Source: Fulvimonas soli
GTDB taxonomy: Bacteria; Pseudomonadota; Gammaproteobacteria; Xanthomonadales; Rhodanobacteraceae
Direction: 5' to 3'
Length of the DNA stretch: 64,000 bases
Assembly: GCF_003148905.1 (NCBI RefSeq)
Contig: NZ_QGHC01000005.1
Span: 62,001-126,000 of the forward strand
Shown here: positions 30,818 through 33,975 of the stretch, piece after piece
How positions within the stretch are numbered: position 1 is the first letter of the stretch
How the letters are laid out: the number at the start of each line of letters is the position of its first letter
Notes under the pieces: model-generated
The model's database searches: none
What the model was told of the DNA's origin: nothing
What the model saw: only the letters and a program-made list of their open reading frames with translations
Position numbers and translations under genes: made by a program

Positions 30818-32191
30818 TCACGGCAGCAGCTTGCCCGGATTGAGGATGCCGTCCGGGTCGAAGGCCTGCTTCACCGCACGCATCAGCCCCAGCGTGGACG
30901 GCTGCAGCGCCAGCGGCATGAACGGCCGCTTGGCGATGCCGATGCCGTGCTCGCCGGACAGCGTGCCGTCGAGTTCCACCACCAGCGCGAACACCTCGGC
31001 CAGGCAGGCATGCGCGCGCTCGCGCTCGGCGGCGTCGCGCGGCAGCAGATTCACGTGCAGGTTGCCGTTGCCGGCGTGGCCGAAGCTGACGATCAGCACG
31101 TCGTGCTGCGCCGCCAGCCGCTTGATGCCGGCCACCAGCTCGGGCAGCCGGCTCACCGGCACCACCACGTCCTCGTTGATCTTGTCCGGCGCGATGGTGC
31201 GCTGCGCGGGCGAGAGCGCCTTGCGCGCCGACCACAGCGCCTGCGTCTCGACGGCGTCCCGCGCGATGCGCAGCTCCTCCAGCCCGTCGCCGCGCGCCGC
31301 GCGCGCCACCGCCTCGGCCGCGGCGGGCAGCGCGTCCGGCTCGCCGTCCACCTCGATCATCAGCAGCGCGCCGGCCAGCGGCACGCCGGCGTCCGGCGCG
31401 TAGTCGTGGGCGAGCCTGAGCGCCACGCCGTCGATGAACTCCAGCGCGCACGGCGTCGCCGGCTGCGCCATGATCCGCGCCACCGCCCGCGCCGCGGCGT
31501 CGACGTCGCGGTAGGTGGCGCGCAGGGTGCGGATCGCCGAGGGCCTGGGCGTGAGCTTGAGCGTGGCTTCGGTGACGACCGCCAGCGTGCCCTCGGAGCC
31601 GATCAGCAGGCGGGTGAGGTCGTAGCCGGTGGCGCCCTTGCTGGTCCAGGTGCCGCAGCGGAAGCCCTCGCCGGTGCCGGCCACCGCGCGCAGGCCCAGG
31701 GTGTTCTCGCGCGGCGTGCCGTACTTCACCGCGCGCGGGCCGGCGGCGTTGCAGGCGAGGTTGCCGCCGATGCTGCACCAGGGCGCGGAGCTGGGGTCGG
31801 GCGGCCAGAAGAAGCCGTGGGCGATGAGCGCCTTCTGCAGGTCGCCGTTGAGCACGCCCGGCTCGACCACCGCGAGGCGGTTGTCCGGGTCGATGCGCAG
31901 GATGCGGTTCATCCGCTCGAAGCTCGCCACCACGCCGCCCGCGACCGGCACGGTGGCGCCGGTGGTGTTGCTGCCGCGGCCGCGCGCGACCAGCGGCGCG
32001 CGGTGCTCGCGGCAGGCGCGCACCAGCGCCTCCACCTGCGCGTGCCCGGTGGGGAACACCACCGCGTCGGGCAGCGCGTCGAGGCGCGAGTTGTCGTAGG
32101 CGTAGGCGAGCCGGCTGGCCTCGTCGGCGGCGCAGGCGGCGGGGCCGAAGATCTCGCGCAGGCGGTCGAGCAGCGGTGAGTGCAGCGGCAT
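30818..32191 (-). CDS. FAD-linked oxidase, GlcD / D-lactate dehydrogenase type
   Basis: A 457-residue flavoprotein of the vanillyl-alcohol-oxidase fold. The FAD-binding half (residues 35-215) has Ala-Arg-Gly-Arg-Gly-Ser-Asn-Thr-Thr-Gly near 70 and Ser-Ile-Gly-Gly-Asn-Leu-Ala-Cys-Asn-Ala-Ala-Gly-Pro near 140. The substrate-cap half has the conserved His residues in Phe-Gly-His-Ala-Gly-Asn-Gly-Asn-Leu-His near 365 and Gly-Glu-His-Gly-Ile-Gly near 414. The C-terminal Asp-Pro-Asp-Gly-Ile-Leu-Asn-Pro-Gly-Lys is typical. It should oxidise a 2-hydroxy acid such as glycolate or D-lactate. There are no glcE or glcF genes beside it, so a stand-alone D-lactate/D-2-hydroxyglutarate-type dehydrogenase is as likely as glycolate oxidase. 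Confidence 0.87.
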   Translation of the reverse strand: MPLHSPLLDRLREIFGPAACAADEASRLAYAYDNSRLDALPDAVVFPTGHAQVEALVRACREHRAPLVARGRGSNTTGATVPVAGGVVASFERMNRILRIDPDNRLAVVEPGVLNGDLQKALIAHGFFWPPDPSSAPWCSIGGNLACNAAGPRAVKYGTPRENTLGLRAVAGTGEGFRCGTWTSKGATGYDLTRLLIGSEGTLAVVTEATLKLTPRPSAIRTLRATYRDVDAAARAVARIMAQPATPCALEFIDGVALRLAHDYAPDAGVPLAGALLMIEVDGEPDALPAAAEAVARAARGDGLEELRIARDAVETQALWSARKALSPAQRTIAPDKINEDVVVPVSRLPELVAGIKRLAAQHDVLIVSFGHAGNGNLHVNLLPRDAAERERAHACLAEVFALVVELDGTLSGEHGIGIAKRPFMPLALQPSTLGLMRAVKQAFDPDGILNPGKLLP

Positions 32192-33508: not shown

Positions 33509-33537
33509 GAAAAAAGCCGCCAGGGTGGCTGGCGGCT
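33509..33537 (-). terminator. Intrinsic terminator (attenuator) before DAHP synthase
   Basis: On the reverse strand a perfect 8-base stem (AGCCGCCA / TGGCGGCT) with a 7-base loop is followed by six T residues. It lies between the leader peptide stop codon and the GTG start of DAHP synthase, about 35 bases before the latter. The GGCGGC in the leader (reverse strand, near 33590-33597) could pair with GCCGCC of the stem and act as antiterminator. Confidence 0.75.
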
Positions 33538-33564
33538 CTTCGAGGGATTCGGTGTGACCTGGTG

Positions 33565-33651
33565 TTACTGGGGTCGCGCGCTCGCCTCCGCCGCCGGCAT
33601 CGGATAGCCGTAAAACCAGAAGTAGCAGCGGCGGGTGGCGAAGGTGATCAC
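33565..33651 (-). CDS. Aromatic-rich leader peptide of DAHP synthase
   Basis: A 28-residue open frame with GTG start ends 28 bases before the attenuator stem. Residues 10-16 read Tyr-Phe-Trp-Phe-Tyr-Gly-Tyr, that is six codons for the three aromatic amino acids within seven. A ribosome stalled there by lack of charged tRNA-Tyr, tRNA-Phe or tRNA-Trp would leave the downstream GGCGGC free to disrupt the terminator, raising DAHP synthase expression. The start codon is uncertain: no strong ribosome binding site is visible before the GTG at 33651, and the frame is open further upstream (TTG near 33690 is an alternative). The aromatic cluster and its position are what support the call. Confidence 0.65.
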   Translation of the reverse strand: MITFATRRCYFWFYGYPMPAAEASARPQ

Positions 33652-33861
33652 GCGGCCATTGGTAACACCATCGGCGCGGTATTGCAACGCCGCATGGCGG
33701 ATGCCGCCTCTCGGGGCCGGCCCAAAGTCTTCCGGGGAAGAGCGCCAGGAAGGCCGGCGGACGAAGCGAGGGTGGGTGTGGGGCAGCGCTCGCCGCTCTT
33801 CCCCTCGTGCATGCTTCTTCGGCCAGGCAAAGCCGGGTTCGACCACACACACGGTGGATTT

Positions 33862-33975
33862 GTCGCGGCCGGAGGCCACTCCCACAGGGGCCTCGCCAGC
33901 CTTGTGCGAGCGGCCTCCGGCCGCGATGCGCGGACCATCGCCCCACGCTCACCATGCCGCGCCGTCGTGGACCGG
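33862..33975 (+). repeat. REP-type inverted repeat with extended flank
   Basis: Inverted arms GTCGCGGCCGGAGGCCACTC (33862-33881) and GAGCGGCCTCCGGCCGCGAT (33908-33927) are followed by a flank with GGACCATCGCCCCACGCTCA and CCATGCCGCGCCGTCG. The flank is shared with the copy at 6761 and partly with that at 12079. It occupies the centre of the 394-base gap between the DAHP synthase leader and yraN, where I see no gene. Confidence 0.8.

Follow-up and report, generated by a model that had tools for sequence, protein, structure and literature searches.

The aroG gene of Fulvimonas soli, which encodes a class I DAHP synthase, is very probably controlled by a classical ribosome-mediated transcription attenuator. 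We located its elements on the minus strand of contig NZ_QGHC01000005.1, within a stretch of 64,000 nucleotides (hereafter the window); its anatomy, conservation, constraint at the RNA level and alternative pairings come directly from the computations described below, and its elements are collected in Table 1. An earlier note, made from the letters of the window alone, had pointed to a reverse-strand frame reading Tyr-Phe-Trp-Phe-Tyr-Gly-Tyr, to a terminator hairpin with a T-run behind it and to a GTG-started class I DAHP synthase gene behind the terminator, and all three are present at the positions given in the table, the gene product matching both PF00793 and TIGR00034. The same note had the frame stop 28 bases before the terminator: the order is as it described, and 27 nt separate the stop codon from the stem. 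The pairing that it saw between a leader GGCGGC and the terminator stem was recovered, 33595-33590 being complementary to GCCGCC at 33536-33531, and it was right that the leader start has no clear ribosome binding site, for which a leaderless start is the likely explanation. The terminator hairpin is visible on folding of the window RNA; a generic promoter and terminator scan of the window returned no promoters and no terminators, the latter probably because the hairpin stem can extend into the T-run.

Table 1 Elements of the aroG leader region in the window (positions are those of the window)
Feature	Position	Strand	Remarks
-35-like element TTGCAA of the leader promoter	33682..33687	-	17-nt spacer
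Extended -10-like element TG-T-TACCAA	33659..33664	-	7 nt from its end to the leader start codon
Leader peptide ORF	33651-33565	-	GTG start, 28 aa, VITFATRRCYFWFYGYPMPAAEASARPQ; TAA stop at 33567-33565
Segment 1, CCGCCGC, protector	33628..33634	-	Partner 33594-33588 in the absence of a covering ribosome
Regulatory codons TAC TTC TGG TTT TAC GGC TAT (Tyr Phe Trp Phe Tyr Gly Tyr)	33624-33604	-	
Segment 2, GGCGGCGG, antiterminator 5' strand	33588..33595	-	Within the 3' part of the leader ORF
Segment 3, AGCCGCCAG, terminator 5' arm and antiterminator 3' strand	33529..33537	-	
Segment 4, CTGGCGGCT, terminator 3' arm	33515..33523	-	Covaries with segment 3
T-run of the intrinsic terminator	33510..33515	-	Same alignment columns hold a T-run in relatives
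Whole intrinsic terminator, AGCCGCCAG-ccacc-CTGGCGGCT plus T-run	33537-33510	-	
AAGGA ahead of aroG	33488-33484	-	
aroG, class I DAHP synthase	33474-32383	-	GTG start, 363 aa; PF00793 1.7e-93, TIGR00034 aroFGH 3.4e-159

The arrangement recurs well outside the lineage of the window. We sampled 110 aroG loci, composed of the best 80 of 592 matches and 30 of the 40 matches from further relatives, with the window included, and detected a terminator upstream of aroG in 89 of them; the 21 others, one of which has just 64 nt of upstream sequence (L078), were excluded from all leader statistics. The 89 loci are divided into 39 from Xanthomonadales, 16 from alphaproteobacteria (e.g. Bradyrhizobium, Mesorhizobium, Devosia, and Leisingera) and 34 from a beta/other group (Burkholderia, Bordetella, Massilia, Cupriavidus and others, Burkholderiales among them). 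None of the 11 enteric AroG loci in the sample (Citrobacter, Serratia, Erwinia, and others) yielded the element, and no terminator was detected in loci of the Azoarcus, Thauera, and Ferrovum type; both sets count among the 21/110. All 89 leaders contain an ORF with at least four aromatics in eight codons ending 18-50 nt before the terminator, a count that 6.7% of shuffles reach, and a score of at least six aromatics is found in 70/89 leaders versus 1/4450 shuffles. Phe, Tyr, and Trp all occur in the run in 39/39 Xanthomonadales and 16/16 alphaproteobacterial leaders; in the beta/other group, 14/34 runs combine the three, 19/34 hold Phe and Tyr only, and one holds Phe and Trp, and the 19/89 leaders with a run devoid of Trp codons all belong to this group. 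The segment-2 motif follows the aromatic codons in 89/89 leaders, as GGCGG in 84 and as GGTGG or GGCAG in 5. Alignment with relatives, proposed in the earlier note as the way to check its reading, did not refute it: the aromatic run, the antiterminator motif, and the terminator are kept far beyond Xanthomonadales. The codons of the run are themselves biased: Phe is encoded by TTT in 174/220 cases in the leaders versus 74/439 in aroG of the same loci, with a positive difference in 70/74 loci, and Tyr by TAT in 100/191 versus 139/431. This preference may reflect slower decoding or a run that is kept unpaired.

A covariance model of the region from the run to the terminator (R1, 33 sequences) was searched in 197 genomes of the window's family and in 398 of its phylum. 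Among the 59 family genomes common to the R1 and AroG searches, as counted by hand, a match at E <= 1e-6 was found in 34/34 genomes with this AroG, many of which had served to train R1 and seven of which had not themselves been fetched beforehand, near relatives of these possibly being included, and in 0/25 genomes without it; weak matches (E 8.5e-4 to 0.0098) were seen in 7 of these 25. The own genome gave a single match in the family and phylum searches, the aroG leader itself. The association of run, motif, and terminator with aroG bears on the possibility that the terminator merely ends the transcription of lppC/yraN, which share the leader's strand, lie upstream of it and extend as far as 34046, the aromatic ORF then being a chance frame. 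Intergenic intrinsic terminators are common, and pattern and covariance-model scans also catch unrelated ones. However, the three elements accompany aroG in all 34 family genomes and across classes, the antiterminator is weakened by synonymous recoding (see below), and dinucleotide shuffling of the 200 nt preceding the terminator never gave six aromatics in eight codons in the matching place, as in the window ORF (0/3000; five aromatics in 1/3000), so that we regard this possibility as highly improbable.

In the phylum set, R1 matched at E <= 0.01 in 150/398 genomes, mostly weakly and often partially, and at E <= 1e-7 in 40 genomes (hand count); the 30 best places all adjoin AroG. Among 20 weaker places that were fetched, 12 lie before AroG, three are a branched-chain leader, two are phe-type-like, and three are chance-like. 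The branched-chain cases come from three genomes of the same order (family f2, L183-L185) with a full-length second match, and a second R1 target was rejected there, as the match corresponds to a leader reading ILVLVLITQ with a terminator before a gene named by eye as ilvC-like. Two places have the look of phe-type attenuators, with gene names taken from translations: an FFFYF leader before a pheS-like gene (L201) and an aromatic leader before a chorismate mutase-like gene (L194). The matches in L186, L187, and L202 look like chance terminators. Simpler patterns were less specific: one search matched 36 of 274 class genomes, mostly at terminators that appear unrelated by eye, and a run plus GGCGG pattern matched in 37/61 genomes, with many matches also in the reversed control and the aroG leaders recognised by eye; in the own genome, the latter pattern gave four matches, one being the aroG leader.

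One family (f118; L188-L193, L196-L198, and L200) displays its own leader type before AroG, e.g. FYFWFSVPGGREA. Its leaders carry CC before GGCGG in segment 4 and G after CCGCC in segment 3 in 10/10 loci, and CC before GGCGG in segment 2 in 8/10. The differences in segments 2, 3, and 4 amount to a lineage-wide compensated change. Compensatory changes in the antiterminator had been called for in the earlier note, and changes of the terminator are in fact partly compensated there.

For the covariation analysis, 15 of the 89 leaders were removed as near-duplicates, and the remaining non-redundant set of 74 was aligned (A1) and compared with shuffles that ignore relatedness. The terminator stem, formed by segments 3 and 4, is paired in 93.9% of the cells and shows 49 double changes versus 12.4 in shuffles, none of 500 being as high. 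The antiterminator, formed by segments 2 and 3, is paired in 79.2% of the cells with 25 double changes versus 9.3 (0/500); when pairs are counted instead of cells, those of 2:3 with double changes show no excess over shuffles (4 versus 3.2; 173/500). Sliding the alignments by 1-3 columns lowered the scores of both 3:4 and 2:3. The base beside the core of segments 2 and 3 is paired in 66/98 loci versus 57.0 expected (0/5000) and unpaired in 32/98, in a test for which one of the 89 leaders was dropped and two of 12 extra loci (L195 and L199) were left out. No covariation of the protector 1:2 was found in A1.

The switch predicted for the window RNA follows from the order in which its segments are made. 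In the free leader RNA before segment 4, segment 2 is held in a 5' hairpin (P 0.90), and the probability of 2:3 is 0.00. With a footprint of about 12 nt beyond the A site, a ribosome placed on TGG or on the second TAC raises the probability of 2:3 to 0.96-0.98 before segment 4 exists; placed on the first TAC, it gives 0.56-0.61 or 0.33-0.36, depending on the register. When the ribosome is positioned at the leader stop codon, the terminator alone can form. When the full window RNA is taken to equilibrium, the terminator is the predicted fold in every state, including under the stalled-ribosome mask, which implies that antitermination must be kinetic, settled before segment 4 emerges.

The same folding was applied to the 74 loci, with a null of synonymous recodings in which codons were drawn from local aroG usage (15 per locus). 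Under a stalled ribosome, the mean probability of 2:3 is 0.90 for the real leaders versus 0.40 for the recoded ones; the real value is higher in 72/74 loci (Wilcoxon 1e-13), and it exceeds 0.5 in 68/74. The duplex energy of 2:3 beats the null mean in 88% of the 74 loci, individually at < 0.05 in 12, and that of 1:2 in 74%, individually in 6, a less sharp result than that of folding and a weak one for the protector. Support for the antiterminator is moderate by covariation and strong versus synonymous recoding. The protector 1:2 is not above synonymous recodings in the folding test (28/74, p 0.36); its probability is greater than 0.5 in 21/74 loci and 0.90 in the window (L083). In free RNA before segment 4, 2:3 is above 0.5 in 31/74 loci, and stalling lifts its probability by more than 0.2 in 42/74. 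From the free-RNA pairing, termination by way of a protector is not to be expected of the untranslated leader in many relatives, where termination would mainly depend on a ribosome that has reached the stop codon. Taken with the conservation and the terminator covariation, the antiterminator pairing relative to synonymous recodings supports the ribosome-mediated layout that had been proposed.

The position of the segment-2 motif within the leader ORF is instructive as to what is conserved. The motif is distributed over the three reading frames in 80, 7, and 2 of the 89 leaders, which indicates that the RNA is kept rather than the tail of the peptide. This observation is relevant to the idea that stalling acts on the translation of aroG or the stability of its mRNA, or that the leader peptide works in trans, rather than on termination in cis. 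Trans roles have been reported for both the leader peptide and the attenuated leader RNA of the trpL of Sinorhizobium meliloti (PMC7298713). Nevertheless, the layout is that of transcriptional control, with a terminator that has a T-run and a covarying stem and competes with an antiterminator, and the RNA motif stays while the surrounding peptide differs, in 9/89 leaders even by frame, so that the peptide tail is not a conserved product; an effect of these other kinds is quite unlikely.

We also considered an RNA that senses otherwise, either a riboswitch that binds an amino acid or a leader bound by a protein, with the aromatic peptide being secondary. A region of 241 nt folds more stably than shuffles (z -4.96), which could speak for such a structure. 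However, part of this fold involves bases that precede the probable transcription start, and the consensus fold of the 74 leaders predicts the terminator and nothing besides. The aromatic codons are conserved, and no cis-regulatory leader of Rfam fits: searched against Rfam 15, the leader matches no leader family, with 15 matches up to E 10 that are all far below the cut-offs, and the models overlapping it are two for microRNAs and none for a bacterial leader family. A sensor of this sort is very unlikely. A long-range stem of the 241-nt fold, GGTGTTACC/GTAACACC, is a probable artefact and was set aside, because the -10 region, which should not be transcribed, supplies its 5' arm.

Translation of the leader is indicated indirectly, by its conserved start codon and by the promoter spacing. 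A simple test for an SD-like site was positive in 0/39 Xanthomonadales, 0/16 alphaproteobacterial and 2/34 beta/other leaders. In 39/39 Xanthomonadales leaders (30 non-redundant), an extended -10 of the TGnTA type ends 6-9 nt before the start codon, the expectation from mononucleotide shuffling being 1.5%, a value that is not an independent-sample probability since the sequences are related. The spacing between the best -35-like hexamer of these 39 leaders, which is often TTTGCA or TTTGCG, and the -10 measures 17 nt in 26 cases, 18 nt in 10, 16 nt in 2, and 19 nt in 1, and the window conforms with TTGCAA-17-TACCAA-7-GTG. In the alphaproteobacteria, GTGACA or TCGACA, 17 nt, TAnnnn, 6-8 nt, and the start codon follow one another in 14/16 leaders (raw count); TGnTA at such a distance is present in 2/34 beta/other leaders. 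With a -10-like box only 6-9 nt from the start codon, the leader mRNA is probably leaderless, and the leader is probably translated from it as such. The start codon is ATG in 38/39 Xanthomonadales leaders and GTG in the window alone; initiation may be weak where a leaderless mRNA begins with GTG.

In the attenuator model that we infer, the transcription start, the translation of the leader, and the response to each amino acid are the predicted parts. RNA polymerase would start at the leader GTG or within a few bases of it, and a ribosome would load on the leaderless leader mRNA. A shortage of charged Tyr-, Phe-, or Trp-tRNA would stall this ribosome in the YFWFYGY run, where it would cover segment 1 and leave segment 2 free to form the 2:3 antiterminator, so that aroG would be transcribed. 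When charged aromatic tRNAs are available, the ribosome would reach the stop codon and cover segment 2, and the 3:4 terminator would form and stop transcription before aroG. If no ribosome translates the leader, segment 1 would occupy segment 2 in the window organism, again giving termination.

The own genome encodes two PF00793 proteins, the second being KDO8P synthase, together with a class II DAHP synthase, so the leader would control one of two DAHP synthases; no leader before the class II gene was seen by eye in the upstream 39 nt or so. A TrpR homologue is also present in this genome, and TrpR control is thus possible as well. Upstream of the aroG promoter, an imperfect palindrome (33865-33924) belongs to a dispersed repeat, GCGGCCGGAGGCCGCTCCCACA, which matches 123 times forward and 108 times in reverse across the own genome when up to 2 mismatches are allowed, versus none for the reversed control; it looks like a REP-type element, and another copy precedes trpR (L144). 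After aroG, on the same strand, 30818-32185 encodes a GlcD/FAD-linked oxidase-like protein that falls below the curated NCBIfam GlcD cut-off.

An AroG tree was built from 79 rows, 58 of them with the element and 21 lacking it; on this tree, the presence label needs 4 changes versus 18.9 when shuffled, and the rows largely follow taxonomy, two Leisingera rows excepted. The pattern is compatible with an old origin of the element and its loss in enteric and Azoarcus-type groups, the midpoint root leaving the direction unset. The two Leisingera AroG sequences (L057 and L063), both with a leader, lie inside Xanthomonadales on a long branch; horizontal transfer of the gene with its attenuator and a long-branch effect are both possible readings of this placement. 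Another row, from a contig labelled Candidatus Melainabacteria (L061), has its AroG among beta- and gammaproteobacterial sequences, and the contig is possibly misbinned or its AroG transferred.

The E. coli trpL and pheL leaders follow a four-segment scheme, each sensing one amino acid, controlling trp or pheA, and starting from a Shine-Dalgarno site. The aroG element resembles them by the codons for end products in the leader and by the alternative terminator and antiterminator; it differs by its three aromatics, its probable leaderless start, and the lack of a general protector helix. A parallel by target is AroR/aroF of Corynebacterium glutamicum, whose attenuation is reportedly the subject of an original study by Neshat in 2014. 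The AroR leader with Phe-Tyr-Phe is described as acting by ribosome-mediated attenuation (PMC11802643, PMC4046766) and as responding to Phe and not to Tyr (PMC11802643), the latter source describing trpL and pheL as well. By these descriptions, which are the basis of the comparison, AroR/aroF likewise has an aromatic leader peptide before a DAHP synthase gene, but it belongs to another phylum and its stated run is without a Trp codon. A leaderless attenuator leader in a proteobacterium is exemplified by the trpL (rnTrpL) of S. meliloti, where the leader RNA reportedly starts at the leader ATG (PMC7298713); it differs in sensing Trp and controlling trpE(G).

Control of DAHP synthase by a uORF or an attenuator has been put forward elsewhere. 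A uORFC-13-1 motif precedes aroF of Acholeplasma, and attenuators have been proposed for aroF of E. coli and Shewanella (PMC8632094, PMC2659441), with the aroF and aroH leaders of Shewanella being predictions. The Acholeplasma uORF concerns another organism and gene and, by its description, contains at least one Phe codon; the E. coli and Shewanella aroF cases concern other genes and are hypotheses or predictions. The automatic predictions of Merino include attenuators of the aroA-tyrA operons of Vibrio (PMC1173090). In R. solanacearum, aroG1 and aroG2 are stated to be repressed by Phe and to rise 10-20-fold on deletion of the other gene (PMC6379268), a behaviour that would fit attenuation by a putative leader; a plasmid search for other AroG copies showed no Ralstonia among the 30 listed of 476 matching records. 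A regulon survey found TyrR and TrpR conserved in many gammaproteobacterial groups and absent from other classes (PMC5343134). Among the papers that our literature search listed, mostly ones outside subscription, no attenuator of a proteobacterial aroG came up; Panina 2001, Vitreschak 2004, and Lopatovskaya 2010 may hold a prediction. As far as could be seen, then, the mechanism is of a known kind, and the element is widespread and apparently undescribed for proteobacterial aroG.

As a tentative proposal, with the balance leaning slightly against it, the element may be an ancient sensor of Phe, Tyr, and Trp that predates the split of the alpha-, beta-, and Xanthomonadales AroG and was lost in enterics. 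A shortage of any one of the three would stall the ribosome and open the common pathway, and in two lineages the leader would be leaderless and translated through leaderless (70S) initiation. If true, this mode of initiation may couple aromatic synthesis to circumstances under which leaderless translation is favoured. The up to three sensed amino acids and the probable leaderless start are the parts that merit the attention of specialists, and the element would lend itself well to work on how attenuation operates on leaderless mRNA and to the engineering of aromatic production. The attenuator offers a concrete, testable answer to the question of how bacteria other than enterics regulate an entry step into aromatic synthesis: from the conservation of the arrangement in many alpha-, beta-, and gammaproteobacteria, it is very likely that the cell switches aroG on when aromatic amino acids are short.
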